The notes under the pieces are model-generated. The model was given only the letters and a program-made list of their open reading frames with translations, had not been told where the DNA came from and did no database searches. Shown here piece by piece: positions 1-29,756 of a DNA stretch of 64,000 nt. Origin of the DNA: Beijerinckiaceae bacterium (GTDB lineage: Bacteria; Pseudomonadota; Alphaproteobacteria; Rhizobiales; Beijerinckiaceae); assembly GCA_947475995.1 (NCBI GenBank), contig CANJNI010000003.1, positions 1-64,000 of the forward strand, read 5' to 3'. Within the stretch, counting starts at the first letter, position 1. The number at the start of each line of letters is the position of its first letter. The position numbers and the translations under genes were made by a program.

Positions 1-831
1 GCCGACTTCCCAGTCGTAGCGCTTGGGCTCTTCGCCCTCCGGCCACATCAGCGAATAGCCTTCGCCCGACAGGATGATGACGTAAGCGCCCGGACCGTGT
101 GCGTGGCCCTTCTTGTAGGTCCCGACCGGGAACTGCGAGATGTGGCTGTTCATCGAGCCCTTGGCCATGTTGAAGCGGATATGTCCGCCGCCCGCGCCGC
201 GCTCCTTGGCGGTGATGAGGGGCAGGTTCACCGCATCCGGCACAAAGTTGGTCTGCAGCAGGAAGCCCTTCTGCTCGGTCTTCGCCGCGAAGTAGTCCGG
301 CTCGCCCGAGAAGCGGCTCTTGAAGTCGTGCTTCGTGCTGAAGACGAAATCGAGGTCTTCATACAGGTTGATGACCGGGGGAGCATTGGTGACGCCGATA
401 TAGCGCGCCGGCTCGCGGCCCGAACCGTTGAAGTGCTGGTGCATGGTGTTGATCGGAATCGCGAAAAGCGAACCCGGACCCCATTCGAAGGTGATCTTCT
501 TGCCTTCGTCGTTCCACACCGTGGTGGAGCCGCGGCCGTCGAGAATGAGGACCATTTCCTCGTAAAGCTGGCGATGGGGCGCGAGCTGCTTGCCCGGCGG
601 AATTTCCATCACGTAGCTGTCGTTCGAGGTGCGCGAGGCGTCGTGGTTGACGAACACCGCATTGCCGCCGCGACGAGCCCAGGGCTTCAGCGGAACGGTG
701 CGCAGGTTGCGGACATAGAGGCCGGGGATGATGTCGAGACCTTCGCCCGCCACCCAGCGGGTGTAGGGAGTCTCTTTTTCGGTCGCGAACTTCTGGGCCA
801 GTTCTGTCGAAACGATCGCGTCTTTTGCCAT
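1..831 (-). CDS. Double-cupin (bicupin) protein, C-terminus beyond window
   Basis: The reading frame opens with ATG at 831, preceded by AGGAG about 6 nt upstream, and runs off the left edge after 277 codons, so the C-terminus is missing. Two cupin modules are visible. The first carries GKQLAPHRQLYEEMVLILDGRGST (about residues 80-105, shown here only by its shape) followed by NTMHQHF; the second carries KKGHAHGPGAYVIILSGEGY near residue 245. The histidines fit a metal-binding jelly roll of the gentisate-dioxygenase/bicupin type. It is a paralogue of the cupin gene at 9545-10777, sharing the E-E-x-x-L-I-x-x-G-R-G-S-T block. It is the last visible gene of a leftward set with an ABC ATPase, permease and EutA-like protein. 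Substrate is unknown; a dioxygenase acting on a carboxylated aromatic is an inference from context. Confidence 0.85.
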   Translation of the reverse strand, partial: MAKDAIVSTELAQKFATEKETPYTRWVAGEGLDIIPGLYVRNLRTVPLKPWARRGGNAVFVNHDASRTSNDSYVMEIPPGKQLAPHRQLYEEMVLILDGRGSTTVWNDEGKKITFEWGPGSLFAIPINTMHQHFNGSGREPARYIGVTNAPPVINLYEDLDFVFSTKHDFKSRFSGEPDYFAAKTEQKGFLLQTNFVPDAVNLPLITAKERGAGGGHIRFNMAKGSMNSHISQFPVGTYKKGHAHGPGAYVIILSGEGYSLMWPEGEEPKRYDWEVG

Positions 832-849
832 TCAATACTCCTGGTCTGG

Positions 850-880
850 GGCGCGCCTTCGCCCGGGGGCGTGGCGCGCC
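850..880. other. Perfect GC-rich hairpin between ABC ATPase and cupin genes
   Basis: GGCGCGCC (850-857) pairs with GGCGCGCC (873-880), and inside it CGCCC (860-864) pairs with GGGCG (867-871). The element lies between the ATPase stop (900) and the cupin start (831), just upstream of the cupin ribosome binding site. It has no T-run in either direction, so an RNA-stabilising or expression-adjusting intercistronic stem is more likely than a terminator. Function is inferred. Confidence 0.5.
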
Positions 881-899
881 GATGCAAATGCGGGGCCGA

Positions 900-2030
900 T
901 CAGGCCACTTCCTTGAGCCCGCCGTCGTCCTCGATGGCGAGGCACTTTTCCGGGTTCATGCGGACATTGATCTTTTCGCCGATCGGCGTGCGCAGCGAGG
1001 GATGCGCACGGGAACGGAGCAGGTAATTGCCCACCTTGACCTCAAGGTCAACGAAATCGCCCAGGAAGATGCGCTGGTCAACCACGCCCGACAGATGGTT
1101 GTCGGTCGGGCTGCCGGACAGAGGGGCTTCCTGAAGTTCGACGTCTTCCGGACGGATCGAGATCGAAGCCTTGCCGCCCAGCTTGAGGGTGCCGTCGCTC
1201 TCGACCAGGATCTGGCCGAGCGGGGTGTCGACGCGCCAGCGCTTGGCGGTCTCGTCGAAGCCGCGCACGTCGCCGTCGATGAAGTTGGTGGTGCCGATGA
1301 AGTCGGCCACGAACTTGGTCTTCGGACGCTCGTAGATGGCGCGCGGCGGCCCGATCTGGACCACGCGGCCTTCGTTCATGACGGCGATTTCGTGCGACAG
1401 CGCCAGAGCCTCGCCCTGGTCGTGGGTCACGTAGATGGTGGTGATGCCGAGATCGCGCTGGATGCGCTTCAGCTCGAACCGCATCTTGTCGCGCAGCTTG
1501 GCGTCGAGGTTCGACAGCGGCTCGTCGAGCAGGAGCAGTTCGGGCTCCATCACGAGGGCGCGGGCGAGCGCCAGACGCTGCTGCTGGCCGCCGGACAGCT
1601 TGGTGGCTTCGCGTTCGGCCAGATGGTCGAGGCCGACGGCGTGCAGCACGCTCATCACCTTGTCCTTGATCTGCTGCTTGTTCGGGCGGTTCTTGCGGAC
1701 TTCGAGCGGGAATGCCGCATTGGCGAACACCGTCATGTGCGGCCAGATCGCGTAGGACTGGAACACCATGCCGAAGTTGCGGCGGTTCGGCGGAACGAAA
1801 ATCCCGCGCGAGGAGGAATAGACCAGGTTTCCGTTGACCTCGATGTCGCCCGAGACGGGACGTTCGAGACCCGCGATGGAACGCAGCGTCGTCGTCTTGC
1901 CGCAGCCCGAAGGTCCGAGCAGCGTGAAGAACTTGCCTTTCGGCACCTCAAAGGTGACGTCCTGCGCCGCCTTCACCGGTGGGCCTTTCGGCGTCTGGTA
2001 TTCAGTAAAAAGTGCCTTGACGCTGAGCAC
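900..2030 (-). CDS. ABC transporter ATP-binding protein, Fe3+/polyamine (FbpC/PotA) type
   Basis: This 376-residue cytoplasmic ATPase energises an ABC importer. Walker A is GPSGCGKTT (39-47), the signature LSGGQQQR is near 145-152, Walker B LLLLDEP is at 165-171, and the switch His lies in VTHDQGEA. The last ~100 residues form the TOBE-type regulatory region seen in FbpC, PotA and MalK relatives. The start is GTG at 2030 with GGAGGGAGGA upstream. It sits 21 bp after the permease gene and is clearly its partner. It is the only ABC ATPase of this class in the window, while a second paralogous permease at 22460-24220 has none. Imported substrate cannot be read from sequence. Confidence 0.93.
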   Translation of the reverse strand: MLSVKALFTEYQTPKGPPVKAAQDVTFEVPKGKFFTLLGPSGCGKTTTLRSIAGLERPVSGDIEVNGNLVYSSSRGIFVPPNRRNFGMVFQSYAIWPHMTVFANAAFPLEVRKNRPNKQQIKDKVMSVLHAVGLDHLAEREATKLSGGQQQRLALARALVMEPELLLLDEPLSNLDAKLRDKMRFELKRIQRDLGITTIYVTHDQGEALALSHEIAVMNEGRVVQIGPPRAIYERPKTKFVADFIGTTNFIDGDVRGFDETAKRWRVDTPLGQILVESDGTLKLGGKASISIRPEDVELQEAPLSGSPTDNHLSGVVDQRIFLGDFVDLEVKVGNYLLRSRAHPSLRTPIGEKINVRMNPEKCLAIEDDGGLKEVA

Positions 2031-2051: not shown

Positions 2052-3779
2052 TTACGTTTCCTTGATGCCGTACCGACGCCCGATCGCCTGCGCCACAAGG
2101 GTGAAGACGAACAGGGTTGCGATCAACATTACACCAAATGCGGACAATTCCACATACTGTCCGTTTTGCCAAAGTTCCCAGATGATCACAGAAACCACTT
2201 CGGAGCCGGGGCTGTAAAGCAGGATCGAACTCGACAGTTCGCGAACCGAGACCACCACCACGTAGATCCAGCCGGCCAGGAGGCCCGGTTTCAGCAGCGG
2301 CAGAACGATATGCCAGAATGACTGCAGCCAGGAAGCGCCGCTCATGGCGGCCGATTCTTCCAGTTCCTTGTGAATCTGCAGCATCGAAGTCGTGTTGTAG
2401 CGCATCCCATAGGGCAGGAAACGGGTGACATAGGCGATCAGCAGGATCCAGATCGTGCCGTAAATGCCGCCCCCGACGGTCAAATAGCAGATCATGATCG
2501 CCAGGCCGAGGACGAGGCCCGGCATCACCATGGGCAGGGACGCCATATTGTCGAGCATCCAGCGGCCCCGAATCCTCGTGCGCAGGACGATCCACGCCAG
2601 AACCGCCGTCAGGAGCATGACGAGCGTGGCGCTGCTCAGCGACAGGACCATGCTGTTCCAGACCGCGCCGCTGACATTCGGGTAGGAAATGATCGACTGG
2701 TAGGAGCGCAGCGTGACGTTCTTCAGCGCTGCCCAGGACGGAACGCTGTAAAATCGCTGCAGCGACGACCAGACCAGAATGAAGAACGGCATCGCGATGG
2801 CGAAAAGCGCATAGAGCAGGAAGATCGCCGCCGTTACATAGCGCCAGCGGCCGAGATCGATCACGCGGGGCCGGAACCCCTTGCCGGTGACGGTGGAATA
2901 TTTGTTCCCCTGGCTGCCGATGCGGGCCTGGAACCAGATACCCCCCGAGGTGATGACCAGAAGGGTCAGCGCATAGGCCGAAGCGAGGCCCACATTGCTC
3001 GGATAGCGGTGGATCGCGTCATAAATGGACGAGGTGAAGACCTGAATCCCGACCGGCAACCCGAGCAGGGCCGGCACCTCGAAGGATTCGATCGACCGGA
3101 TAAACAGGATCAGGAAGGAGGCCGCCACCGCCGGCCAGGCGAGGCGCAACGTGATGCGCCAGGCGATCTGCAAGGTCGATGCGCCGCTCATCAGGGCCGA
3201 TTCTTCGAGCGACGGGTCCATGGACCGGAAGGCCGCCGTCATCAGCAGGAAAGCGATGGGCGCATAGTGCAGTCCGTCGACGACGATCATGCCGCTCATC
3301 GAATAGACGTCGAAGAACGTGTAATCCGTGTCGAACAGGTTCCGGAGGATCAGGTTGAAAAGCCCGATCTTGGGGCTCGCCAGCATGATCCATGAAACCA
3401 CGAACAGGATGCCCGGCACCACCAGCGGGATGATGGACGTGGCGTAGAAGACCGATTTGAACGGCGTATTCGTGCGCTCGCTCATCCATGCGAGCAATGT
3501 CCCGAGCACCAGCGCAAAAACCGCAGTGCCGGATGCAAACTGCACGGAATTGACGAACAGGCTGAAGGTTTCGGGGCTCGTATAGGCCTCGATGTAATTG
3601 GCGAGCGTGAATTGCTGCGCCCGTGCGGCCGTCTGGGGAGTCATGAAACTCTGCCAGACGAGGAAGCCGAGCGGAATCAACGTCAGCCACGCAACGAATG
3701 TGACGACGCCGGACGTCACCACCCATTCGCTGCTGACGCGCGGCGTCGCAGGCGCATCGCCGCGTCTCACTCCCGACAT
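2052..3779 (-). CDS. ABC transporter permease, two fused FbpB-type domains
   Basis: About 575 residues with roughly 12 membrane helices, made of two BPD-transporter permease domains in tandem. Each domain has an EAA loop that docks on the ATPase: EESALMSGASTLQIAWR in the first half and EESAAMSGASWLQSFWH in the second. This is the usual build of Fe3+-type (FbpB/SfuB/AfuB) permeases. I choose ATG 3779 because AGGGGAA precedes it; a TTG six codons upstream is also possible. The gene lies between an EutA-like gene (70 bp) and the ATPase (21 bp). No substrate-binding protein is present in this operon inside the window; it may lie beyond position 1 or be supplied by the one at 21413-22450. Confidence 0.92.
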   Translation of the reverse strand: MSGVRRGDAPATPRVSSEWVVTSGVVTFVAWLTLIPLGFLVWQSFMTPQTAARAQQFTLANYIEAYTSPETFSLFVNSVQFASGTAVFALVLGTLLAWMSERTNTPFKSVFYATSIIPLVVPGILFVVSWIMLASPKIGLFNLILRNLFDTDYTFFDVYSMSGMIVVDGLHYAPIAFLLMTAAFRSMDPSLEESALMSGASTLQIAWRITLRLAWPAVAASFLILFIRSIESFEVPALLGLPVGIQVFTSSIYDAIHRYPSNVGLASAYALTLLVITSGGIWFQARIGSQGNKYSTVTGKGFRPRVIDLGRWRYVTAAIFLLYALFAIAMPFFILVWSSLQRFYSVPSWAALKNVTLRSYQSIISYPNVSGAVWNSMVLSLSSATLVMLLTAVLAWIVLRTRIRGRWMLDNMASLPMVMPGLVLGLAIMICYLTVGGGIYGTIWILLIAYVTRFLPYGMRYNTTSMLQIHKELEESAAMSGASWLQSFWHIVLPLLKPGLLAGWIYVVVVSVRELSSSILLYSPGSEVVSVIIWELWQNGQYVELSAFGVMLIATLFVFTLVAQAIGRRYGIKET

Positions 3780-3849
3780 TTCCCCTGCGACGGCCAAGAA
3801 GGTCTCCGTGTCGCGTTGTTGCGCCGGGCTGTTCCGCCCGGTCGCTCAG

Positions 3850-5616
3850 CTAGTGCTTGTGATCGCCGTGGCTATGGCCATGACCGTGATGATGATCGTG
3901 ATCATGGTCGTGGTGGTGATGCTGCCCGTGGCCATGTTCACGCCCATGGGCATGGTCGTGACCGTGGTGGTGGTCATCCTCGCGGTGGTGGATGATTTCC
4001 TTGGCGCGCGGCCCGCGCGGGTCCTCGCTGAACACGAGCGACTTGATCGTCACCGGAACCGTGAAGGACGGAACACGCACCTTGCCGAGGTCGATATAAT
4101 CGAAATCCATGAGCATCACGCCGTCGATGACCAGGATCTCGCTTTCGATGTGCAGTTCCTCGCGCAGCAGGGCGCCCAGTGTCTGGGCCACGTCGCCGTC
4201 GAGCATGACATAGACCGGCTTTTTTTCGGCGATCTTGTCCGCGAGCCCTTCCCGGATACCCAGCGCGAAGGCGTGAATGCGCTCGTAGGAGGGGGCGCCC
4301 GTCCAGCGCAAGGCCAGCGCAATCTCGGTTTCCGTGTCTTCGAGTTCGAAGGCCTTGCGGTGCGAGATGATCGCCCTGGCGAGCGCCTTCGGGTCGATCT
4401 CCTCGCCAGCCTCGAAGGGCGGCTGGATGACCTGCAGATTGCGGCGCGGCAGCAGCTTTCCGGGATTGGAAATGTAGCTCGTGTTGCCGGAGAGCTGGAC
4501 AGAATATTCCGATGCGCCGAGCGCGGTCGCCCGGATGCATTCGCGCGCCGGCAGCATGGGCCACGGCAGGAACTTGCCTTCCGCAACCTTGCGGGCAATG
4601 GCGGTTCCAAGCCGCTTGCCCATGTCGCCGAAGTCGCGCTCCTCGCGCGCGTAGATGTATTCTGCGACGCCGCCCGAAAACATGATGCCGCCGAGCGATC
4701 CGAAATCCTCGATCGGATCGGTCAGATAGAGATGGGCCACATCATGCGGCAGGGGGCGCGCCTTAAGGGCCGCCACCAGCGTGTCGGCCATGATGTCCGC
4801 CACTTTGTCGAGCTGTTCGGACGTCACCGTGTCGCCGAGCTTCCAGTCGAAGCCGGCGCGGCGCGCATGGGTGCGGCCCGCCGGGTCGAGGCGGACAATC
4901 CTGAAGTTTTCGTCGACCACCTGGAGGCGGCCGCCTATATGCACCGCAGCCGTCACCATCACCTTGCCGCCTTCGATCAGGCCGAGCTTGGTGGTGCCGC
5001 CGCCGATGTCGATATTGAGCACCCGCATCTGGCCTTCGAGCGAGGCCGCGGAAGCGCCCGAACCATAGGCGGCCAGCATGGATTCCATATGATGGCCGGC
5101 GGTGGCGCATACGAATTCGCCGCCTGCTTCGGACAGCATGGTCGAGATCGCCTGCGCGTTCTCGCGCCGCAGGGCCTCCCCGGTAAGGATCACGGCGCCG
5201 GTGTCGATGTCCTTCTTCTCGACTCCCGCACCCTGATAGGCGTCCTCGATGATCTTCCGGAGTTTCTCGTCGTCGATCCGGGTCTCGCTGGCGTAGGGCG
5301 TCAGCGAGACCGGCGACAGATAAATGGTGTCGCGGGAGACGACGTAGTAGCGGCTGGTCAGGTCTTCGGCGAGGCGGCGCAGGCGGATCTTGGAGAAGAT
5401 GACCTGCGTCCCGGACGAGCCGATGTCGATGCCGACTGTCGTCAGCGTGACGTTATCGGCGATCCAGAGAGGATTTTCCTCCAGCGGTCCGTCGCTCTCC
5501 CACTCGTCGTGTTCGTGGTCGGCGTCGTCCCCGTGCTCGTGCTGAAAAGTCTGGCCGTAAACGTGATCGGTCATCTTGTGACCTTCGGCCTGCTTCTTGT
5601 CGTCGTCCTCAGCCAT
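3850..5616 (-). CDS. EutA-family ASKHA ATPase with His-rich tail
   Basis: A 588-residue member of the EutA family. EutA reactivates adenosylcobalamin-dependent ethanolamine ammonia-lyase by ATP-driven exchange of damaged cofactor. The two phosphate loops DIGSSGT (64-70) and DIGGGTTK (203-210), the LTGEALRRENAQ block and the ending YIDLGKV...VPVTIKSLVF match EutA. Two additions are not found in E. coli EutA: an acidic/His-rich N-terminal stretch (about 15-40) and a C-terminal tail (543-588) with 24 histidines in 46 residues, like tails of nickel/zinc/cobalt metallochaperones. ATG 5616 was chosen; ATG 5574 with GAAGG upstream would drop 14 residues. No EutB/EutC lyase is in the window. It leads the ABC transporter/cupin operon, so its client may be another enzyme; metal delivery is a hypothesis. 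Confidence 0.88.
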   Translation of the reverse strand: MAEDDDKKQAEGHKMTDHVYGQTFQHEHGDDADHEHDEWESDGPLEENPLWIADNVTLTTVGIDIGSSGTQVIFSKIRLRRLAEDLTSRYYVVSRDTIYLSPVSLTPYASETRIDDEKLRKIIEDAYQGAGVEKKDIDTGAVILTGEALRRENAQAISTMLSEAGGEFVCATAGHHMESMLAAYGSGASAASLEGQMRVLNIDIGGGTTKLGLIEGGKVMVTAAVHIGGRLQVVDENFRIVRLDPAGRTHARRAGFDWKLGDTVTSEQLDKVADIMADTLVAALKARPLPHDVAHLYLTDPIEDFGSLGGIMFSGGVAEYIYAREERDFGDMGKRLGTAIARKVAEGKFLPWPMLPARECIRATALGASEYSVQLSGNTSYISNPGKLLPRRNLQVIQPPFEAGEEIDPKALARAIISHRKAFELEDTETEIALALRWTGAPSYERIHAFALGIREGLADKIAEKKPVYVMLDGDVAQTLGALLREELHIESEILVIDGVMLMDFDYIDLGKVRVPSFTVPVTIKSLVFSEDPRGPRAKEIIHHREDDHHHGHDHAHGREHGHGQHHHHDHDHDHHHGHGHSHGDHKH

Positions 5617-5835
5617 TTCCACCGTCGTATTGTTTGCCGGCGAGCCCGGCCTGTCGGGGGGACCGTTCCCGTAACTGGACCGCAGTGTCAACGGGAATCT
5701 TATCAGCGGCTTAGGATCGGGCCGGGTCGGCCGTGCGGCTTCAGCATTCCTTAGCGCTTTAGGGTTAAGTGTCGATTCAGCTTAATCTGACGGCAGAAGC
5801 GACCGGTCCGGCATGTCCGGACGGCAGACCGGGGG

Positions 5836-10865: not shown

Positions 10866-10873
10866 CCTCGGCG

Positions 10874-11353: not shown

Positions 11354-11363
11354 GGTATGCTCC

Positions 11364-11912: not shown

Positions 11913-11922
11913 GACGTTCTCC

Positions 11923-13006: not shown

Positions 13007-13026
13007 ATGGGCTCTCGATGGGGAAG

Positions 13027-13046: not shown

Positions 13047-13102
13047 TGTCAAGCCGTTTACTTGCCCTTGCTACGCACCTTCTGCCCGCATACATTTTGC
13101 GC

Positions 13103-17898: not shown

Positions 17899-17951
17899 AC
17901 GCCCGCACAACAATTTCAGGCGATGGTTCGCCAAAGGAACGGGAGACAGAG

Positions 17952-19193: not shown

Positions 19194-19271
19194 CGCGACG
19201 ACACTATTGCAGGCGGACCTTGCCTCCTGGGCGCCCGGTCCGCCAAACTGGTAAAAATCCGGGAGGGCCTT

Positions 19272-20321: not shown

Positions 20322-20465
20322 CTCGCGCGGCCTCTCGCCGCTACATTCTGCGGCATCGGTCTATTGACCCAAAGATGCAGGAATGTTTCATTCGCCCCCG
20401 ACGTTTTTGCCGCTCCGCTTGGGGCGGACGACCAATGTCGCAACAACCCTTTTCGGGAGGAATGA

Positions 20466-21299
20466 ATGTCCGACGTCATCACACTGGAGAATGTAAAGAT
20501 CGAGCGCGATGGGGGCGTGACCTTCATCATCCTCAACCGGCCGGAGAAGCGCAACGCCATGTCGCCGCAGCTGCACATGGACATGTGCGATGCGCTCGAC
20601 TGGGCCGAGATGGACGACCAGACGCGCGTCGTGGTCATCACCGGCGCGGGCGGCAATTTCTGCGCCGGCCAGGACCTCAAGCTGTATTTCCGCGGCACGG
20701 AAGATGATCCGAAGGCCCGCGTGAAGGCCCGCCGCGCCGCCCACGAATGGCGCTGGAACCGCCTGTCGGCCTTCCCGAAGGCCACCATCGCGATGGTGCA
20801 CGGCTACTGCTTCGGCGGCGGCTTCACCCCTGTCATCGCCTGCGACTTCGCCATTGCGGCTGACAACGCCACCTTCGGCCTGTCGGAAGTGAACTGGGGC
20901 ATCATTCCGGGCGGTCTCGTCGCCTGGGCGGTGACGGAAGTTCTCGGCTATCGCGACGCGATCTATTACTCCGTGACCGGCGACCAGTTCAGCGGCACGG
21001 AAGCGGCGGCGATGAAGTTCGTCAACAAGTCCGTCCCGCTGGAAAAGCTGCGCGAAGAGACGATGGCTCTGGCCCGCAAGCTCGAAGCCAAGTCGCCGGC
21101 CGCCGTGAAGTACACGAAGGAATGTGTGCGCACCGTTCGCCGCATGTCGAAGGATCAGGCGCTCGACTACCTCAACGTCAAGAGCGACGCGCTCAAGCTG
21201 AACGACCCGGAAAAGGGCCGCGCCAAGGCGATGAAGCAGTTCCTCGACGACAAGGTGTTCAAGCCGGGCCTCGGCGAGTTCAAGCGCGAAAACGCCTGA
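20466..21299 (+). CDS. Crotonase-fold hydroxycinnamoyl-CoA hydratase/lyase-like enzyme
   Basis: 277 residues. Several blocks match p-hydroxycinnamoyl-CoA hydratase/lyase (HCHL; feruloyl-CoA to vanillin plus acetyl-CoA): LNRPEKRNAMSP, GQDLKLYF (Tyr74 aligns with the phenol-binding Tyr75 of HCHL), YCFGGGF oxyanion loop and FGLSEVNWGI with Glu141 at the place of catalytic Glu143, plus the C-terminal FLDDKVFKPGL. General enoyl-CoA hydratases lack this combination. ATG 20466 has GGGAGGA upstream. An NDP-forming acyl-CoA ligase follows downstream, the enzyme type that would make the CoA ester. The exact aromatic or acyl substrate remains inferred. Confidence 0.85.
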   Translation: MSDVITLENVKIERDGGVTFIILNRPEKRNAMSPQLHMDMCDALDWAEMDDQTRVVVITGAGGNFCAGQDLKLYFRGTEDDPKARVKARRAAHEWRWNRLSAFPKATIAMVHGYCFGGGFTPVIACDFAIAADNATFGLSEVNWGIIPGGLVAWAVTEVLGYRDAIYYSVTGDQFSGTEAAAMKFVNKSVPLEKLREETMALARKLEAKSPAAVKYTKECVRTVRRMSKDQALDYLNVKSDALKLNDPEKGRAKAMKQFLDDKVFKPGLGEFKRENA

Positions 21300-21320
21300 T
21301 CATCCGAACATGACTTGCGG

Positions 21321-21344
21321 CCCCGCGCGATCAGACGTGCGGGG
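21321..21344. other. Hairpin between crotonase and binding-protein genes
   Basis: CCCCGC (21321-21326) pairs with GCGGGG (21339-21344) across a 12-nt loop in the 113-bp gap before the substrate-binding protein gene. No T-run follows, so it may be a weak attenuator or mRNA stabiliser rather than a full terminator. Confidence 0.3.
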
Positions 21345-21412
21345 TCGTCTGCGACAGAAGCGGCGAAACAGTCGCGCTGCGCATCCGGCGGGGCACAGGA
21401 GGGAACGCGATC

Positions 21413-22450
21413 ATGAGCAAAGTGACGAACATCCGCACCTTCATGACGGGGCTTGCGCTTGGCGCGGGGCTCGTTTCGACCGCAATGGCGCAGGACAAGG
21501 CGCTGATCGACGCCGCCAAGAAGGAAGGCGCGGTCACCTGGTACACGACCCAGATCATCAATCAGTTCGCGCGCCCGGCCGCCGAGGCCTTCGAGAAGAA
21601 GTACGGCGTCAAGGTCGATTATGTGCGCGCCGATTCCAATCAGGTGGCGCTGCGCATCGTCACTGAATCAAAAGCGGGCCGCCCGATCGTCGACGTGTTC
21701 GACGGCACCACCGTGACGCCCATCCTGAAGAAGGAAGGTCTCGTCGAAAGGTGGATCCCTGAATCCGCCAAGCGATTCGGGCCCGAATATTACGACAAGG
21801 AAGGCTACTGGATCGCCACGAACCTCTATGTACTGACGCCCGGATACAACACCAGCATGGTGACGAAGGCGCAGGCGCCGAAGACCTGGAACGATCTGCT
21901 CGATCCCAAGTGGAAGGGCAAGATGGCGTGGAACGCCAGTTCCTCCACGTCTGCCGGTCCGGGCTTCATCGGCCTCGTTCTGGCCGAACTCGGGCAGGAC
22001 AAGGGCATGGACTACATCAAGGCGCTTTCGAAGCAGAATGTGACGGGGCTCAAGGTCGCCGCGCGTCAGGTGCTCGATCAGGTGATCGCCGGCGAATACC
22101 CGATTGCGCTGGAGATCTTCAACAATCACGCCGTCATCAGCGCCCAGCAGGGCGCGCCGGTCGACTGGATTGCGATGAATCCCTCGCTGGCGGTTCTGTC
22201 GGTCCTCTCCATCATCAAGAATGCGCCGCATCCCAACGCGGCCAAGCTGCTCGTCGAATTCCTCGCCTCGGAAGAAGGCCAGAAGCTCTATCGGGATGCG
22301 GATTACATGCCGGTCGACCCGAATGTGCCTCCGCGCGATCCCTCGCTCCGGCCGGACGGGAAAAACTTCCGCGCCATCTACATGACGCCGGAGCAGGTTC
22401 AGGACGCGATGCCGCGCTGGACTGATATCTACAAGCAGTACTTCAACTAG
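21413..22450 (+). CDS. ABC transporter substrate-binding protein, Fe3+ (FbpA/AfuA) type
   Basis: 345 residues with a signal peptide (cleavage near STAMAQD). The fold is that of class-D binding proteins: KKEGAVTWYTTQ, FEKKYGVKVDYVRADSNQV, PKTWNDLLDPKWKGKMAW and HPNAAKLLVEFLASEEGQ are family blocks. Ferric-binding tyrosine pairs cannot be assigned with certainty, and many members bind organic phosphates, sugars or carboxylates instead of iron. It is 9 bp from its permease. No ATPase gene follows, which is unusual. Confidence 0.92.
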   Translation: MSKVTNIRTFMTGLALGAGLVSTAMAQDKALIDAAKKEGAVTWYTTQIINQFARPAAEAFEKKYGVKVDYVRADSNQVALRIVTESKAGRPIVDVFDGTTVTPILKKEGLVERWIPESAKRFGPEYYDKEGYWIATNLYVLTPGYNTSMVTKAQAPKTWNDLLDPKWKGKMAWNASSSTSAGPGFIGLVLAELGQDKGMDYIKALSKQNVTGLKVAARQVLDQVIAGEYPIALEIFNNHAVISAQQGAPVDWIAMNPSLAVLSVLSIIKNAPHPNAAKLLVEFLASEEGQKLYRDADYMPVDPNVPPRDPSLRPDGKNFRAIYMTPEQVQDAMPRWTDIYKQYFN

Positions 22451-22459
22451 GATCAGCTG

Positions 22460-24220
22460 ATGTCCACGAATTTTGCGACGACCGGGGACGGCAAATCGCC
22501 CTCGCAAGGCGCCGTGCGCCGCCTGATTCCGTTGAGCGACAAGCTGATCTTCTCGATCATCATCGGGGTGATCCTTGCCATTCTGGTGATCCCGCCGCTG
22601 ATCTTCCTGATCACCGGCGCCTTCTCGATCGACCTGCCGGGCCGCGCGCGCGAATGGACGCTGAAGAACTTCACCGACATTCTGTCCCAGAAGGGCTTGA
22701 CGGCCAGCCTCGCCAATTCGTTCATCTTCGCCATCGGCAGCGCGGTGTTCGCCCTGGCGCTGGGCGGCATCATCGCGTGGCTGGCGGAGCGCACGAATGC
22801 TCCCTTCAAGCAGCTCGCCTATTTCACCACGATCCTGTCGCTCGGCACGCCCTATGTGCTTTACACGAGCGCATGGCTGCTGCTGCTGGCGCGTTCAGGT
22901 CCGATCAATACGTGGTATCGCCAGTTCACCGGCAGCACGGACGTTCTGATCAACGTCTACGGCCTTGGCGGGATGATCCTGATCGAGGGCCTCCTGTGGT
23001 CGCCGCTGGTGTTCCTGCTGCTCGGCGCGACCTTGCGCAACTTCAATCCCGAGCTTGAAGAAGCCGCCAAGATGAGCGGCGCGAGCACGTGGGACACGAT
23101 CCGCCGCATCACGCTGCGCCTGTCGCTGCCGTCGATTCTCGCGCTGGCGATGCTGGTCTTCATCCGCTCGATCGAGGCGTTCGAAGTGCCGGCGCTGGTC
23201 GGCCTGCCGGGCCGCGTCCATGTGCTGACAACGGACATTTACGACCTGATGCACCGCACGATGCCGCCCAATCTGGGCGCTGCGAGTTCACTGTCGGTTC
23301 TGCTGCTCGTGCTGGTCTCGGTGCTGCTCTACTACTACGGCAAGCTGACCCGCAACGCGGAGAAGTTCGCCACCATCACGGGCAAGAACTTCCGCCCGAA
23401 TCGCTTCGACCTCGGCGCCTGGCGCTATGTGGGCGGTTTCGCGCTGTGCTTCTACTTCTTCCTGATGATCATCCTGCCGTTGATCATCCTCGTTTGGGCG
23501 TCGCTGTTGCCGTTCTACACGACGTTCAGCTGGGCTGCCTGGAGCCGCGCGTCCTTCATCAACTACGGCCGCGTGTTCTCGTCCTCCCGCTACATCACGC
23601 TGCTGGGCAATACGTTCATCATCGCTGTGGTGACCGCAACGGTCGTCATGCTGATCGCGTCCCTCACCGCATGGCTCACCGTGCGAAAGGCCCCCGGTTC
23701 GAAGTGGCTAGACCAGCTTGCAACGACGCCGCTCGTGTTTCCCGGCATCGTGCTCGGCGTCGGCGTGATGCAATTCTTCCTCAACATGCCCATCGGGGTT
23801 TACGGGACCGTCTGGATCATCGTCTGGGCCTTCACGATCAACTACATGCCGTATGGCGTCCGCTATTCGTTCGCCGGCATGCTGCAGGTGCATCGCGAGC
23901 TTGAGGAAGTGGCCGCCGTTTCGGGCGCTTCGCCGCTGCTGGGTTTCAGGCGCATCGTGCTGCCGCTGCTGGCCCCGTCGCTGATCGCCGGCTGGCTGTT
24001 CATCTTCCTGCTGGCGACGCGCGTTCTGTCGTTGCCGGTGCTGCTGTCCGGACCGAGTTCGCAGACCATGGCGGTGGCCATGTTCGACCTGTGGGGCAAC
24101 GGACAAGGACCCGAACTGGCCGCGCTCGGCCTGCTCTGGAGCCTGCTGATGACATCCATTGCGGTCACGTTCTATCTGGTGGCGCGCCGTTCCGGGACGG
24201 GCATTCACGGACAGCATTGA
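22460..24220 (+). CDS. ABC transporter permease, two fused FbpB-type domains
   Basis: 586 residues, about 12 membrane helices, two permease domains. EAA loops EEAAKMSGASTWDTIRR and EEVAAVSGASPLLGFRR would contact an ATPase. It is a clear paralogue of the 2052-3779 permease (both have a KF/KY-x-T-x-TGK-x-FRP linker and LGxWRYV). Spacing to the binding protein is 9 bp and to the acyl-CoA synthetase 14 bp. Because no ATPase is encoded here, the ATPase at 900-2030 is the natural candidate partner. Confidence 0.92.
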   Translation: MSTNFATTGDGKSPSQGAVRRLIPLSDKLIFSIIIGVILAILVIPPLIFLITGAFSIDLPGRAREWTLKNFTDILSQKGLTASLANSFIFAIGSAVFALALGGIIAWLAERTNAPFKQLAYFTTILSLGTPYVLYTSAWLLLLARSGPINTWYRQFTGSTDVLINVYGLGGMILIEGLLWSPLVFLLLGATLRNFNPELEEAAKMSGASTWDTIRRITLRLSLPSILALAMLVFIRSIEAFEVPALVGLPGRVHVLTTDIYDLMHRTMPPNLGAASSLSVLLLVLVSVLLYYYGKLTRNAEKFATITGKNFRPNRFDLGAWRYVGGFALCFYFFLMIILPLIILVWASLLPFYTTFSWAAWSRASFINYGRVFSSSRYITLLGNTFIIAVVTATVVMLIASLTAWLTVRKAPGSKWLDQLATTPLVFPGIVLGVGVMQFFLNMPIGVYGTVWIIVWAFTINYMPYGVRYSFAGMLQVHRELEEVAAVSGASPLLGFRRIVLPLLAPSLIAGWLFIFLLATRVLSLPVLLSGPSSQTMAVAMFDLWGNGQGPELAALGLLWSLLMTSIAVTFYLVARRSGTGIHGQH

Positions 24221-24234
24221 GGAGTAGGTGGGGC

Positions 24235-26403
24235 ATGAGCAGTGCAAGCATGAAGACCGCAGGCAACAATGCGGTCGCGAAGGTCGAAGCGCTGCTCAAC
24301 CCCCGCAACGTCGTCATCATCGGAGCCACCGACAAGCCCGGCAACTGGGCGCAGCGCGTGTGGCGCAACCTCAAGCGCTACAATTATCCGGGCAAGATCT
24401 ATCCGTTCAATCCCGCGCGCGAGAGCGTGTGGGATGAACGCTGCTATCGAAGCTTCGACGAGTTGCCCGAAGCCCCCGACCATCTGATCGTCCTCGCCCC
24501 CGCCAAGCATGTGGCCGGAATGCTGCGGGACGCGGCCGCCAGGGGCGCGCGCAGCGCGACGGTGATGAGCTCGGGCTTTGACGAAGCGCCCGAGGCCGAA
24601 GGCAAGGTTTTGGGCGCGGAATTGCGCAAGGCCATCGAGGAGACCGGGCTGGCGGTGTCGGGGCCGAACTGCCTCGGCAATTTCAACGCGGCGGCAAGCT
24701 TCTTTTCGATGACGGACGATCGTCCGCACAAATTTACCGTTGGACCTGTGGCGGTGTTTGGCCAGTCGGGCGGCATCGTGATGGCCATCAAGCGCACGCT
24801 GGAAGAGCGCGGCATCGACACTGCCGCGCTGGTCACGACAGGGAACGAGACCGGCCTGACGACCGCCGATTACATCACCTATTTCGCGCAGGTCGACCAC
24901 ATCCGGGTCATCGCCTGCTATGTGGAGTCCGTGCACGATCCGAAGGCGTTTCTGGATGCGCTGCGCATCGCACGCGCCGCCGGAAAGCCGGTTGTGGTGA
25001 TGAAGCTGGGCGCGTCCGACAAGGGCCGCGAAGCCGCCGCCGCTCATACGGGCGCGTTGGCCGGCTCGATGGAAGCTTTCGACGCCATTGCGGGCGAGGC
25101 TGGCGCGCTGCGCGTGCGCAATCTCGACGACATGGTGGAGGCGGTGGAATTCCTGACCCACGCGCCGCTGCCGACCGGCAGCCGCCTCGGGTCCATCACC
25201 TTCTCGGGCGGCATGCGCGGATTGCTTCTCGACGGCGCGGCGATGAATAGTCTCGACTATCGCCCGCTGAGCGATGCGACCTTCAAAAGACTTTCAGAAT
25301 TTCTCGGCGTCGGCACCATCATCGGCAATCCGCTCGACACGGGCTTTACGGGCCTCACCAATCCCGCCGCCTATGTGAAGAGCGTCGAGGCGCTGCTGAC
25401 CGACCCGGAGATCGACATTCTGCTGCTGCAGGAAGAATTGCCGCGCGGACCCGGCTCGGAGCGCAAGGAAGCCAACCTGCGCGCCGTCAACGACCTTGTT
25501 CCGAAATACGGGAAGCCGGTCGCCTTCGTGACGATGATCTCGCACGGCGTGAATGATTATGCCCGCAAGCTGCGCGACGAACTGCCGAACCTGGCCTTCC
25601 TGCAGGAAGTGGAGAAGTCGCTGCGCGCCGTCGCGAATGTCATCGCCTATGCGGAGCGGATCGGACAAAAGACCCCTGCCCTTCCGGCGCCGAACGAGGC
25701 CGGACGGAAGCTGCTCGCCGACTACGCGCGCGTTGCGGGGCCGGCGACGCTGGACGAAGTGCGTTCGAAGAACCTGCTGCGCGCCTATGGAGTTCCTGCG
25801 CCGCGCGAAGAACTTGCGGTGACCGAGGATCAGGCCGTCGCGGCTGCCGGGCGCATCGGCTACCCGGTTGTGGCGAAGCTCGTCAGCGCAGCGATCCCGC
25901 ACAAATCTGACGTCGGCGGCGTCATCGTCGGCATCAAGAACGAGGCCGATCTGCGGGCGGCTTTCGCAAGGATCGTTTCGGCAGTCGCGGCCCTCCCCGG
26001 CAAGCCCTCGCTCGATGGCGTGCTGATCGCCGAGATGGTGAGCGGCGGTCTGGAACTGGTGCTGGGCGCATCGCACGATCCCGAAATGGGTCCGACGATC
26101 CTGTTCGGCGCGGGCGGCGTCGATCTCGAACTCGTGCGCGATGTGGCGCTCGCCGCGCCGCCGCTGGATGAAGCGCGCGCCAATGCGCTCATCGACCGCA
26201 CGCGCGTGGCGCATATCATCGCCGGTTATCGCGGACGGCCTGCGCTCGACCGCGCAGCGCTGGTTCAAGCGCTGATCGGGCTGTCGCATCTGGTGACGGA
26301 CGCGGGCGAAGATATCGATTCCATCGACATCAACCCCTTCCTGTTGCGCACGAGCGGGGGCATGATGCTCGACGCGCTGGTGGTGCGCAAAAAGGGCGCT
26401 TGA
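24235..26403 (+). CDS. NDP-forming acyl-CoA synthetase (acetate-CoA ligase family)
   Basis: 722 residues with alpha and beta parts fused. A CoA-binding Rossmann domain (NVVIIGATDKPGNWAQ, about 25-40), ligase-CoA domains with the phosphorylated His271 in AAAAHTGALAGS, and an ATP-grasp domain from about 500 (YPVVAKLVSAAIPHKSDVGGV) are all present. It forms acyl-CoA from an acid, CoA and NTP. Feruloyl-CoA synthetase FerA of Sphingobium belongs to this superfamily, which fits the HCHL-like crotonase three genes upstream. ATG 24235 preceded by GGAG; sits 14 bp after the permease. Confidence 0.9.
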   Translation: MSSASMKTAGNNAVAKVEALLNPRNVVIIGATDKPGNWAQRVWRNLKRYNYPGKIYPFNPARESVWDERCYRSFDELPEAPDHLIVLAPAKHVAGMLRDAAARGARSATVMSSGFDEAPEAEGKVLGAELRKAIEETGLAVSGPNCLGNFNAAASFFSMTDDRPHKFTVGPVAVFGQSGGIVMAIKRTLEERGIDTAALVTTGNETGLTTADYITYFAQVDHIRVIACYVESVHDPKAFLDALRIARAAGKPVVVMKLGASDKGREAAAAHTGALAGSMEAFDAIAGEAGALRVRNLDDMVEAVEFLTHAPLPTGSRLGSITFSGGMRGLLLDGAAMNSLDYRPLSDATFKRLSEFLGVGTIIGNPLDTGFTGLTNPAAYVKSVEALLTDPEIDILLLQEELPRGPGSERKEANLRAVNDLVPKYGKPVAFVTMISHGVNDYARKLRDELPNLAFLQEVEKSLRAVANVIAYAERIGQKTPALPAPNEAGRKLLADYARVAGPATLDEVRSKNLLRAYGVPAPREELAVTEDQAVAAAGRIGYPVVAKLVSAAIPHKSDVGGVIVGIKNEADLRAAFARIVSAVAALPGKPSLDGVLIAEMVSGGLELVLGASHDPEMGPTILFGAGGVDLELVRDVALAAPPLDEARANALIDRTRVAHIIAGYRGRPALDRAALVQALIGLSHLVTDAGEDIDSIDINPFLLRTSGGMMLDALVVRKKGA

Positions 26404-26504
26404 CGCCTGCGCCGATTGGGCGAAACTGATGGAATGCGGAGCGCCATGCTCCGAAAGAAACAACATCGGCGCGGATGGCGCGCCACAGCGGGAGACGCTC
26501 GTCC

Positions 26505-27278
26505 ATGAGAAAGATTCTTTTCCTCAATCAGGCGCCCCGCAAGGGCGACAAGGGCCCGCCCTATGAGGTCGAAAAGATCGAGGCGCAACTCAATTCCTAT
26601 GCGACGGCAGGAACCAAGGTCGAAATCGGATTTCCGGACGATTACGAAGGCTCGCAGCTCTTCAACACCATCGGGGCGCAGAGCCATCTGAACGGCCTGC
26701 ATCACATGATGGAAACGCCCGCCCTCGTTCGCAAGATCTTCTGGGCGGCCGAGAACGGCTACGACGCCGTGATTTCTTCGAATACCTTCGATCCGGGCGT
26801 CGACGGCGGCCGTCTTGCGGTGGACATTCCGGTGATCGGCCTGCTGCGCACCACGATGCATGCGGCGCTGACGCTGGCGGACCGCGTCGGCGTCACCGTG
26901 CCGCTGGGCCCTCACGTGCCTTACACATGGCGGCACATGCGCACGCTCGGGCTTGATCGTTTCGTCACCGAGATCCAGCCCATCGGGGTTTATGTCGATG
27001 TGCAGAAGCGCAAGGACGAGATTTTCGACATCACCGTCAAGCTCATCAAGAAGATGATCGCGAATGGCGCGGAAATCATCATGCCGCTGGGCGGCGCGCT
27101 CATTCCATATGTGGTGAACCCCGACGATCTGGCGCGCGAGACCGGCATCCAGGTGCTCAACACGAAGGCCATCGGCATTCGCTTCGCGGAAGCCTGCATC
27201 GACCTGAAGATGACCCAGAGCGGCATCACCTATCCGCGCACGAAGCTGAATTACGCAGACTTCACCAACAAGCTCTGA
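26505..27278 (+). CDS. Asp/Glu/hydantoin racemase-fold protein lacking both catalytic Cys
   Basis: 257 residues with the two-domain fold of Asp/Glu and hydantoin racemases (about 240 residues normally). The first catalytic Cys site reads SSNTFDPGVDGGR, with Asn93 where Cys stands in CFxDP; the second reads MPLGGAL, with Gly197 where Cys is expected. The only Cys is 231. The two-cysteine racemase mechanism is therefore impossible. A binding, decarboxylase-like or isomerase-like role is open. ATG 26505 is preceded by GGGAGA. It is followed 60 bp later by a CapA-like gene. Confidence 0.78.
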   Translation: MRKILFLNQAPRKGDKGPPYEVEKIEAQLNSYATAGTKVEIGFPDDYEGSQLFNTIGAQSHLNGLHHMMETPALVRKIFWAAENGYDAVISSNTFDPGVDGGRLAVDIPVIGLLRTTMHAALTLADRVGVTVPLGPHVPYTWRHMRTLGLDRFVTEIQPIGVYVDVQKRKDEIFDITVKLIKKMIANGAEIIMPLGGALIPYVVNPDDLARETGIQVLNTKAIGIRFAEACIDLKMTQSGITYPRTKLNYADFTNKL

Positions 27279-27338
27279 GGCGGGGCGGCGACGTCCGCCG
27301 CTCTCCAGCCTCTCCTTTTTTCGCGTCGTGAGACTCCC

Positions 27339-28700
27339 ATGATCTATTCTTCGCAAGCCGGTAATTTCAGCATTGCGCTCGCGGGCGACTGCCTCGTGAC
27401 GCGCCGCCTCAGCATTTTCGACGAGCCTGCCTACATGGATCTCGTCAACATCATTCGCGATTGCGACGCCGGTTTCGTCAATCTCGAAACCGTGGTGCGC
27501 AACTGGGACGAAGGCGAGCCTGGCATCACGCGCGGCACTTTCATGACCACGCCGCCAGAACTGCTGGAAGACTTCAAGTGGCTCGGCATCAACATGGTCA
27601 ATTGCGCCAATAATCATATGTTCGACTATGGCCGCGACGGATTGATGGCGACCATCAAGCACCTCAATGAGGCCGGCATCGTTCACGCAGGCTCCGGCAA
27701 GAATCTCGCCGAAGCCCGCATGGCGCGCTATCTCGACACGAAGGGCGGGCGCGTGGCCCTGCTCGGCACGACAGCGACCTATCGCCCGTGGAACGCCGCG
27801 GGCGCGCAGCGGCAGGACATTGCCGGGCGTCCGGGCGTCTCGCCGTTTTCGACGAAGGTCACATACACGGTCGACAACGAGGCCTTCAGCGCCTTGCAGC
27901 GCATGGGCCGCGAGCTTGGTTTCGAGCGCACGCGCGAGCGCGACGCGACGCATTTCTATGCCGCGTCTGAACTCGGCGCGACCGGCGCGGACAAGATGAG
28001 CGCGTTCGGAACGGCGTTCGTGAAGGGCGAGTCCTTCGGGGCGACCGCGACCGCCAGTCAGGACGATATCGACGACATCCTGCGCTATGTGCGCGAGGCG
28101 CGCCGCATGGCGGACTGGGTGGTGGTGAGCTTCCACACGCACGATTTCTCGCAGAAGGCGCAGGCCAAGGCGCGCACGCGCATCGAGCTGGAGGAACCGG
28201 CCGACTTCATCCCGGATTTCGCCCGTCAGGTGATCGACGCGGGCGCGGACGTGTTCGCCGGCCATGGATCGCATACACCGCTCGGGATCGAAATCTACAA
28301 GGGCAAGCCGATCTTCTACTCGCTCGGCAATTTCATCATGCAGAACGAGACGCTGCCGTTCTTCCCCGAGACGGCCTACAAGCGTTTCGGCCTCGGCCAC
28401 GACGCCACGCCGTCGGACTTCCTGCACGCGCGCACCGACGGCGGCAAGAAGGGCCACGAGGCTCATGCGGGCTTCTGGGAAAACTTCACCGTCACCTGCC
28501 ATTTCACGGGCGGCAAGCTTTCGGAAATTCGCATTCACCCGATTGACCTGGGCTTCGGCCTGCCGCGCAGCCAGCGCGGGCGTCCGGTGCTGGCGGGCGA
28601 TCCCGTCCGCACGCGCGTGATCGACCGCGTGGCGCGTCTGTCAAAGCCCTACGGAACCACGATCGAGAACCGCAACGGGACCGGCGTCATCACCATGTAG
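27339..28700 (+). CDS. CapA-family (PgsA-like) metallophosphoesterase-fold protein
   Basis: 453 residues of the CapA/poly-gamma-glutamate-biosynthesis family with metal-site motifs IALAGDCLV, FVNLETV, CANNHMFDYG, SFHTHDF and AGHGSHTPLG, then YSLGNFIMQ. Unlike capsule PgsA, there is no signal peptide or membrane anchor, and no capBC synthase genes nearby, so it is cytosolic and probably a hydrolase of a pathway intermediate rather than a capsule protein. It lies between the racemase-like gene and a Bug receptor. Confidence 0.87.
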   Translation: MIYSSQAGNFSIALAGDCLVTRRLSIFDEPAYMDLVNIIRDCDAGFVNLETVVRNWDEGEPGITRGTFMTTPPELLEDFKWLGINMVNCANNHMFDYGRDGLMATIKHLNEAGIVHAGSGKNLAEARMARYLDTKGGRVALLGTTATYRPWNAAGAQRQDIAGRPGVSPFSTKVTYTVDNEAFSALQRMGRELGFERTRERDATHFYAASELGATGADKMSAFGTAFVKGESFGATATASQDDIDDILRYVREARRMADWVVVSFHTHDFSQKAQAKARTRIELEEPADFIPDFARQVIDAGADVFAGHGSHTPLGIEIYKGKPIFYSLGNFIMQNETLPFFPETAYKRFGLGHDATPSDFLHARTDGGKKGHEAHAGFWENFTVTCHFTGGKLSEIRIHPIDLGFGLPRSQRGRPVLAGDPVRTRVIDRVARLSKPYGTTIENRNGTGVITM

Positions 28701-28724
28701 CCGGCCACACCACAGGGGGAATCC

Positions 28725-29756
28725 GTGACGCCTTTACTCTCGCGCGTATCGGCAGCTTTCGTAGCGCTCTGCAGCATGCAATGCGCGGCATCAGCCCAGA
28801 CGGCGGATTTCTACAAGGGCAAGACGCTCACCATCCTGTGCAGCACCGAGGCCGGCACGCTGTACGACACCTATGCGCGCGCCATCGCGCAGTATCTGCC
28901 CGAGTACATACCCGGCCGCCCGAACATCATTGTCGAGAACATGCCGGGCGCGAGCGGCATCCGGGTGGCGAACTACACATGGACCGTCGCCGCCAAGGAC
29001 GGGACGGTGATCGCCGCGACCCATGCGGCGATACCCACCCAGCCCCTCTTCACGCCCGACACGACCCGCTACGATTCCCGCAAGCTCGGCTGGATCGGCA
29101 GCGCCAACCGCGAACCCTTCGTGGGCTTCGTGCGCGGCGCTGTGCCGGTGCGCAGCATCGAGGACATGAAGACCATGCCGCTGATCGTGGGCGGCACCTC
29201 GCTGGGCTCCGCCTCGATCGACATGGCGATCGTGATGCGGGACATGTTCGGCCTGAAAGTGAAGATCGTCACCGGGTACAAGTCGTCGCTCGAAACCAAG
29301 CTCGCCATCGAGAAGGGCGAGATCGACGGCACCTTCGGCAACGGATGGTCGTCCGCCAAGACCGAATTGAAGAACCAGCTGGCGGACGGGTCGATCCGGG
29401 TCATCACGCAGTTCGGGGCCCGGCGTCTTCCGGATTTGCCAGACATTCCGGTTTTTGCGGAGATCGCCCGCAACGATGAAGAGCGCCAGATGCTCGAATT
29501 GCTGCTCGCACGGCAGGAGTTCGCCAAGCCCTATTTCGCCCCGCCCGGCGTTCCGGCAGAAAGGCTCGCGATCCTGCGCAGGGCCTTCGATCGGGTCATG
29601 GAGAACAAGTCCTTCCTGAGCGACATGGAGCGCAGGCAATTGCCGGTCGAGGCCATGACGGGCGAGGAACTGGCCGCGATGATCGACCGCCTGATGAGCA
29701 CGCCGCCGGAACTCACGGCCCGTCTCAAGGCTTTGTTTGCCAACTTCAAGAATTGA
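28725..29756 (+). CDS. Bug/TctC-type periplasmic solute receptor
   Basis: 343 residues, GTG start at 28725 with GGGGGA upstream, 24 bp after the CapA-like stop. Signal peptide ends near AASAQ. Bug-family loops are present (TILCSTEAGTLYDTYARAIAQ, IIVENMPGASG, WIGSANREP), with the family's usual GG-x-YD altered to GTLYD. It has no tctAB partner in the window. It closes the rightward catabolic run and probably delivers or senses a carboxylated substrate. Confidence 0.9.
   Translation: MTPLLSRVSAAFVALCSMQCAASAQTADFYKGKTLTILCSTEAGTLYDTYARAIAQYLPEYIPGRPNIIVENMPGASGIRVANYTWTVAAKDGTVIAATHAAIPTQPLFTPDTTRYDSRKLGWIGSANREPFVGFVRGAVPVRSIEDMKTMPLIVGGTSLGSASIDMAIVMRDMFGLKVKIVTGYKSSLETKLAIEKGEIDGTFGNGWSSAKTELKNQLADGSIRVITQFGARRLPDLPDIPVFAEIARNDEERQMLELLLARQEFAKPYFAPPGVPAERLAILRRAFDRVMENKSFLSDMERRQLPVEAMTGEELAAMIDRLMSTPPELTARLKALFANFKN

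Follow-up and report, generated by a model that had tools for sequence, protein, structure and literature searches.

An EutA-like ATPase and a bicupin form a conserved gene pair that probably serves the bicupin's metal centre

A pair of genes, one encoding an actin-fold (ASKHA) ATPase of the EutA family and the other a bicupin, occurs twice in the first 64 kb of contig C3 (CANJNI010000003.1) of a Beijerinckiaceae bacterium. This stretch is referred to here as the window, and the genome to which it belongs (G000) comprises 4.14 Mb in 73 contigs. The EutA-like ATPase/bicupin pair is conserved from Proteobacteria to Actinomycetota. Computation established the co-occurrence and adjacency of the two genes, the matching of their subfamilies, the ATPase motifs, the His-rich tails, the nickel genes in some of the loci and the absence of EutB from most carriers. 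The pair itself is well supported, a maintenance role for the ATPase is likely, and nickel as the metal is plausible. With moderate confidence, we favour the explanation that the bicupin is an oxygenase of aromatic breakdown and that its cognate ATPase loads its metal centre, probably nickel, or reactivates it. A preliminary description of this DNA had proposed that the EutA-like ATPases maintain a metal or radical enzyme other than ethanolamine ammonia-lyase; a metal enzyme remains the best reading, and we can now point to the bicupin as the partner.

Both EutA-family genes of the window (EutA1 and EutA2, Table 1) had already been recognised, and two further copies, on C19 and C8, were found beyond them, each also beside cupins. 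G000 contains four full-length copies (PF06277: 402, 392, 381 and 360 bits), all with cupin genes nearby, while a fifth match is partial and lies under the cut-off at 21 bits. At the C19 copy (EutA3 locus) a bicupin is located about 35 bp away on the same strand. No eutBC genes had been seen in the preliminary description, which regarded their presence next to the EutA copies as evidence against its reading; when looked for with PF06751 (EutB) and PF05985 (EutC), they gave no match in the whole G000 genome, and E. coli gave a signal as control. Against the NCBIfam EutA equivalog, whose cut-off is 598 bits, EutA1 scored 343.2 and EutA2 334.1 bits. In a 25-row EutA alignment (mean column identity 49% over mixed rows), DxGS, DxGGGTxK and SGGV are invariant, and we take these to be the phosphate-1, phosphate-2 and adenosine motifs of ASKHA ATPases. 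By these motifs EutA1 and EutA2 are actin-fold ATPases, with a predicted ATPase activity. The predicted structure of EutA1 has a confident core and disordered tails, residues 7-49 and 533-590 having a predicted local distance difference test (pLDDT) score below 50. A Foldseek search with it returned PilM, Ppx/GppA and MreB on top at E ~1e-9 (template-modelling (TM) scores 0.24-0.33 by query) and also, at low TM-score, activators of 2-hydroxyacyl-CoA dehydratases; a PDB search with the EutA profile gave weak ASKHA matches only.

To follow the pair in other bacteria, GTDB genomes were scanned with the four EutA proteins. At least 536 relatives were confirmed, which among the matches listed span Alpha-, Beta- and Gammaproteobacteria and Actinomycetota, and the best 80 loci were used. 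Genes were called by a codon-usage caller trained on the window or, for neighbourhoods, on each locus, and their exact starts are uncertain; the locus counts of bicupins, block genes, nearest cupins and close pairs come from tblastn matches instead. In 44 loci EutA1 is flanked by 8 kb or more on each side (full-flank loci); among these, a bicupin of type A, B or C was present in 38, an ATP-binding cassette (ABC) transporter ATPase in 29, a permease in 24, a single cupin in 24 and a LigXa-type Rieske oxygenase in 23. It can be seen that the neighbourhoods are not random (random ones were the other outcome that the preliminary description had named as speaking against it) and that the arrangement of EutA-like ATPases with cupins and a transporter, without eutBC, is kept in relatives. 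At the level of whole genomes, 50 of the 80 were tested, namely all 19 without a cupin match in the stretch, 18 Actinomycetota and 13 others; a bicupin was found in 49 of these EutA1 genomes and EutB in eight.

Within a 144-genome sample of the class, full-length EutA was present in G000, G088, G096 and G104, and a bicupin in exactly these four, none of which has an EutB match; all other EutA matches in the sample reached at most 31.4 bits. When G000 is excluded because it was chosen by the finding, the chance of such a coincidence of three positives in 143 genomes is 1 in 477,191, relatedness ignored. A 299-genome sample of the phylum served as control. Five of its genomes have EutA; in four of them EutB lies at most 160 bp away and no bicupin is present, and the fifth is G000. 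Since EutB was found in 61 of the 299 genomes and EutA in five, EutB often occurs without EutA. Among 72,556 plasmid records, EutA was found in 25 and a bicupin in four, and those four (three Sinorhizobium and one Phyllobacterium zundukense) carry both, side by side, while features on the other 21 EutA plasmids bear eut names where annotated. We found no description of the pair in the literature searched, most subscription papers lying outside it.

The two partners are also matched by subfamily. Close pairs, with both genes on one strand and under 600 bp between them, were collected from the window, the 80 loci and a further 12, a test that is independent of tree labels. There were 51 such close pairs, and 50 of them match (EutA1 with cupinA, 30; EutA2 with cupinB, 15; EutA3 with cupinC, 5). 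The bicupin nearest to EutA2 is cupinB in 13 of 16 loci. In a 34-row EutA tree, the cupinA-linked (14 rows), cupinB-linked (7) and cupinC-linked (2) proteins form clades with supports of 100/99, 100/99 and 100/97 respectively, with the C8 copy joining the cupinA side. The 30 cupin-type rows are split from the four EutB-linked rows at 97/93, a separation in which one EutB-linked row (L108) has a very long branch and for which the tree tool warns of long branches meeting. Likewise, in a 29-row cupin tree the cupins linked to EutA1, EutA2 and EutA3 each form one clade. The labels of both trees were set by sequence subfamily and locus, and the clades alone are partly circular.

The bicupins themselves are numerous and, within a subfamily, well conserved. 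With cupinA as query, 13 matches were obtained in G000 (contigs C3, C8, C15, C19, C26, C27, C46 and C59), two of which are halves of the gene cut by the contig start, and 14 and 27 in G096 and in the genome of L040 (G433), so that the family is multiplied in some Alphaproteobacteria. Mean column identity of cupinA is 80% over 23 sequences from two phyla, and its relatives in EutA1 loci are mostly 69-87% identical. In the C-terminal cupin of cupinA, KKxHxHxPGAH is nearly invariant and HQHFN is kept; the N-terminal cupin lacks HxH (QRQLFEE) but has QHFN-type residues. The second bicupin of the window, cupinB, which shares 36% identity with cupinA (the two had been noted earlier as paralogous double cupins), has KAHAHTSAA and HQHF. 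To our eyes this pattern resembles the three-His site of gentisate dioxygenases. A Foldseek search with the cupin model ranked bicupins first (oxalate decarboxylase, MncA and vicilins, TM-scores 0.43-0.49), and profile searches of the PDB with the cupins gave distant matches only, to auxin-binding protein, gentisate dioxygenase 3bu7 and archaeal phosphoglucose isomerase. The pairs of Actinomycetota and P. zundukense are accompanied by genes for a Rieske oxygenase of the LigXa type, an RraA-type aldolase, a zinc alcohol dehydrogenase, an alpha/beta hydrolase and a protein of the Amidohydro_2 family. In the protocatechuate and gallate pathways, amidohydrolases and aldolases of the RraA type act after the ring has been cleaved, and the bicupin may accordingly be a ring-cleaving or related oxygenase.

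Two features point to a metal, and to nickel in particular. The first is the tails of EutA1. A His-rich tail (at least four His in one tail) was found in 75 of 80 EutA1-side proteins, in 0 of 19 EutA2, in 0 of four EutB-linked proteins and in one of three EutA3; eight or more His within the terminal 60 residues occur in 65 of 78 EutA1 proteins versus 1 of 552 other proteins longer than 300 residues from the same loci. The second is the neighbours, which include a recurrent cluster (c4) of NicO/NiCoT permeases whose representative matches PF03824. NicO-type genes lie 118 to 3,274 bp from EutA1 in 14 of the 80 loci; about 0.66 would be expected in 80 stretches at the density of G000 (two genes), relatedness ignored and with the reservation that this density may not be that of other genomes. 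Two NicO representatives scored 54 and 365 bits against PF03824. In six of six rows the NiCoT neighbours show H-x5-H with a conserved D (HGxDxDH/HAFDADH), in agreement with HX4DH, which we take to be the signature of NiCoT nickel/cobalt permeases. NikR-like genes (42-53% identical to annotated NikR) are present in six of the 80 loci, five of them adjoining the permease, and permease or NikR genes together in 15. In P. zundukense the order according to the record annotation is cupin, EutA, a HoxN/HupN/NixA nickel/cobalt transporter on the opposite strand, and NikR; behind a second cupin-EutA pair of this bacterium lie a LysR gene and a putative metal transporter of the TerC type.

Taken together, these results are consistent with a two-part module as the core of the system, in which a bicupin metalloenzyme would have a dedicated EutA-family ATPase. 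The ATPase would spend ATP to load the metal of the bicupin or to swap a dead metal centre, in a manner akin to the reactivation of ethanolamine ammonia-lyase by the classical EutA. The metal is probably nickel, with cobalt possible; the His-rich tails of the EutA1 branch would hold it, and in some hosts the NiCoT permease would supply it under the regulation of NikR. The bicupin may be an oxygenase with a gentisate-dioxygenase-like three-His site acting on methoxylated or carboxylated aromatics, and the ABC transporter may feed its pathway. In its most specific form, the proposal would add a new machine of metal-centre maturation or repair, i.e. a His-tailed ASKHA ATPase that puts nickel into its cognate nickel-dependent bicupin oxygenase or exchanges it there, with matched subfamilies and multiplied bicupins (up to 27 matches per genome) widening the range of aromatic substrates; we regard this form as possible, though rather less than an even chance. 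In the literature searched, as far as its text was available, nickel insertion or exchange in a bicupin is a role assigned to no EutA-family protein.

Several observations weigh against the favoured explanation. Six of the 44 full-flank loci have no bicupin nearby (L031, L039, L042, L051, L052 and L056), although all six have one elsewhere in the genome, and a metagenome-assembled genome, G434, has no bicupin match at all, the sole miss among the 50 tested. One close pair, at L100 (G104), is mismatched, its members standing on different branches in the EutA and cupin trees. Eight further close pairs are on opposite strands, six of them EutA1 with cupinB, because the two modules stand there in divergent order, as in the window. 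The bicupin nearest to EutA1 is cupinB in 14 and cupinC in one of 60 loci. The C8 copy of EutA adjoins two single cupins just upstream instead of a bicupin. Bicupin matches exceed EutA copies (13 versus 4 in G000, 14 versus 2 in G096), and therefore a strict one-to-one service is not general; one EutA-like ATPase may serve several bicupins. As to the metal, EutA2 has no His tail though cupinB has the same kind of site, 65 of the 80 loci contain neither nickel permease nor NikR gene, the 15 that do are mostly from Betaproteobacteria, and the NicO genes of G000 lie on C34 and C29 and not beside the EutA-cupin pair. The three-His assignment rests on an alignment in which HxH and HQH are conserved, and the cupin model is of medium confidence (mean pLDDT 74.6; residues 166-214 below 50). 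Finally, that the two proteins are in contact, which metal is bound, which partner helps which, and what reaction is run on what substrate are inferences from genomes rather than from biochemistry. Four of the loci without a nearby bicupin (L042, L051, L052 and L056) share a different neighbourhood, and each of their genomes has two bicupin matches elsewhere that adjoin each other.

The closest competitor keeps the two partners and drops the nickel. The ATPase may reactivate an inactivated bicupin, by repairing oxidised Fe(II) or releasing a dead-end ligand, while the His tails buffer metal or aid assembly. Cupins of the gentisate-dioxygenase type are iron enzymes. The absence of His tails from EutA2 means that the tail is not needed for a function common to both branches, and the classical EutA is a reactivase of ethanolamine ammonia-lyase in the available parts of PMC12487888 and PMC3483176 and by a title cited in PMC10949508. 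However, nickel permease and NikR-like genes stand at loci of several lineages, and we consider reactivation without nickel unlikely, if the most serious of the alternatives.

The preliminary description had treated positions 1-29756 as one system, and a rival reading would have the whole stretch take up and cleave hydroxycinnamate-type acids. The other genes that it had named in this stretch were also found: ABC ATPase, Rieske protein, Amidohydro_2 protein, p-hydroxycinnamoyl-CoA hydratase/lyase (HCHL)-type crotonase, nucleoside diphosphate (NDP)-forming acyl-CoA ligase, Asp/Glu racemase fold, PGA_cap/CapA-like protein and TctC-type receptor. The crotonase (20466-21299) exceeds the equivalog cut-off of NF006588 (p-hydroxycinnamoyl-CoA hydratase/lyase; 362.2 versus 276 bits), and together with the CoA ligase it adjoins the EutA/cupin genes; an HCHL-type crotonase and an NDP-forming CoA ligase fit a CoA-dependent breakdown of hydroxycinnamates. 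Against a single system stands the distribution of these genes. Where a match had to reach 35% identity and span half of the protein, the genes for aquaporin, Rieske protein, amidohydrolase, crotonase, CoA ligase, racemase and CapA-like protein (16191-28700) matched in 0 of the 80 EutA1 loci, the two Bug/TAXI-type receptors of the right half in four each and the solute-binding protein in one; at about 30% identity more matches of the right block appear. The right-half permease matched in 38 loci because it is a paralogue of the left one. Plasmid matches, all below 60% identity (racemase 31, crotonase 1812 and CoA ligase 481 records), have no bearing on a conserved block. The links of the right block to the pair are the neighbourhood itself and the C19 locus of EutA3 and cupinC, where relatives of the window's crotonase (59%) and racemase (75%) lie beside the pair, a qualified exception to the negative result. 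The right-hand block was accordingly rejected as part of the core on the count of its enzymes in EutA1 loci; positions 17952-29756 look like a neighbouring hydroxycinnamate cluster outside the conserved pair, and we think it improbable that the stretch is one system.

The client of the ATPase might instead be another enzyme of the cluster, for example the Rieske oxygenase of LigXa type or a B12 enzyme that escaped notice, the cupin being merely a frequent neighbour. The LigXa-type oxygenase matches in 23 of the 44 full-flank loci would suit this, but 49 of 50 such genomes contain the bicupin, the subfamilies agree in all but one of the 51 close same-strand pairs, and no B12-enzyme family was matched by 18 scanned representatives of recurrent neighbour clusters, two of which matched no family. 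We therefore hold another client to be very unlikely. That the genes are a remnant of ethanolamine utilisation, with EutA left after the loss of eutBC, as their Pfam name might suggest, is contradicted on several counts and hardly credible: all four copies are intact, their ATPase motifs are conserved, they stand apart from the EutB-linked EutA in the tree, at least 536 relatives were confirmed, and the scores lie under the NCBIfam EutA cut-offs. Two related candidates were rejected: ethanolamine utilisation as such, on the absence of EutB and EutC from G000, and the other protein called EutA, a racemase of hydroxyectoine breakdown (PMC5924519 and PMC4334477, as far as their available text goes), which is of a family different from that of the PF06277 genes.

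Table 1. Features of the EutA/cupin region and its right-hand neighbours in the window
Feature	Position	Strand	Family match or remark
cupinA, N-terminal 277 residues of a bicupin truncated at the contig start	1..831	-	Cupin_2
ABC transporter ATPase of the EutA1 operon	900..2030	-	ABC_tran + TOBE_2
Fused two-domain ABC permease of the EutA1 operon	2052..3797 (other start: 3722)	-	BPD_transp_1, 2 stretches
EutA1, EutA-family (ASKHA) ATPase, putative partner of cupinA; His/Asp-rich N-terminal tail, His-rich C-terminal tail	3850..5622	-	PF06277 401.5 bits (cut-off 27)
cupinB, bicupin, putative partner of EutA2; motif KAHAH...HQHF	9545..10777	+	Cupin_2/Cupin_1 (scored on 9413-10777)
Insert: methyltransferase-family gene, two SRPBCC-type genes, TetR, CcdA antitoxin, CcdB-like open reading frame	10874..13649	.	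between cupinB and EutA2
EutA2, EutA-family ATPase without His tails, putative partner of cupinB	13714..15234	+	PF06277 391.8 bits (cut-off 27)
Prolyl-aminopeptidase-family alpha/beta hydrolase	15234..16190	+	TIGR01249 374.8 bits, cut-off 259.75
Neighbouring catabolic block: Amidohydro_2, TAXI/Bug-type receptor, HCHL-type crotonase, Fe3+-type solute-binding protein and permease, NDP-forming CoA ligase, Asp/Glu racemase fold, CapA-like, TctC	17952..29756	+	
Second fused permease	22460-24220	+	41% identical to the EutA1-operon permease

The genes of the EutA1 operon are separated by some 20 to 130 bases, according to which starts are taken, and its permease and the second one are indeed paralogous, as described earlier. 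Extension to the left of position 1 was obtained from contig C46, whose start matches the first 63 bases of C3 exactly in reverse complement. Following this overlap, C46 carries the end of cupinA, a solute-binding-protein-like gene, two cupinA paralogues, another solute-binding-protein-like gene and a single cupin, and therefore the EutA1/cupin cluster continues leftward of the window. In 11 of the 13 loci where cupinB is the nearest bicupin of EutA2, the two genes are 14-132 bp apart on the same strand (2.9 kb in L017 and 2.0 kb in L025), and the 2.9-kb stretch separating them in the window therefore looks like an insertion. Just ahead of EutA2, at 13115-13649, this stretch ends with a CcdA antitoxin gene (PF07362) and an overlapping open reading frame that is presumably CcdB-like. 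The prolyl-aminopeptidase-family hydrolase recurs behind EutA2, with a match in 12 of the 80 loci. A Flp pilin gene (7774-7938) lies among the EutA/cupin genes of the window; near the cupin-EutA-NikR cluster of P. zundukense there are two (L109, 18992-19715). A protein at 43574-44182 of the window is 53% identical to the TerC-type (YjbE) putative metal transporter of that bacterium. In the right-hand block, whose setting is catabolic, the CapA-like protein (27339-28700) scored 301 bits (cut-off 700) against MslH, the epimerase of the C-terminal Trp of lasso peptides. The racemase-fold protein of the window (26505-27278), earlier called Cys-less, has a single Cys at residue 231, as does a 75% identical protein of L006 (7535-8308), and neither has a Cys pair.

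If the favoured explanation, maintenance of the bicupin metal centre by the ATPase, is correct, its consequences extend beyond this genome. About 70% of metalloenzymes are presumed to draw their metal from the buffered pools of the cell, according to the available part of PMC4192464. With a dedicated ATPase partner, one large bicupin family would join the enzymes that cannot obtain or retain their metal unaided. Proteins annotated as "ethanolamine ammonia-lyase reactivating factor EutA" in genomes without the lyase would become bicupin helpers. There would also be a handle on the uncharacterised bicupins that have proliferated in some Alphaproteobacteria (three genomes with 13, 14 and 27 matches), in clusters that resemble those for the breakdown of lignin-derived aromatics.

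Compared with known systems, the EutA proteins of G000 resemble the EutA reactivase (PF06277; NCBIfam PRK10719 group) in that the same Pfam family covers their full length and the phosphate-1 motif is shared; identity to four EutB-linked copies is 26-36% (tblastn). They differ from it in having no EutB/EutC partner, in forming a separate clade, in scoring under the NCBIfam cut-offs, in the His tails of EutA1 and in their bicupin partner. On the cupin side, the gentisate 1,2-dioxygenase and 5-aminosalicylate dioxygenase bicupins are similar in the HxH...H arrangement of the alignment and in weak profile matches to 3bu7 (E 0.003 and 9e-6). Unlike them, cupinA lies far under the equivalog cut-off (18.7 of 650 bits to NF049978, 5-aminosalicylate dioxygenase, scored on the cut cupinA), and to our knowledge gentisate dioxygenases have no dedicated ATPase. 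The nickel metallochaperones HypB, UreE and CooJ combine a His-rich tail, a link to nickel transport and nucleotide-driven delivery, as proposed for EutA1; as far as we know they are not actin-fold proteins, and the likeness is one of description. A parallel for the pairing itself is the XylT ferredoxin, the product of a dedicated partner gene, which keeps the ring-cleaving catechol 2,3-dioxygenase active by electron transfer and not as an ATPase.

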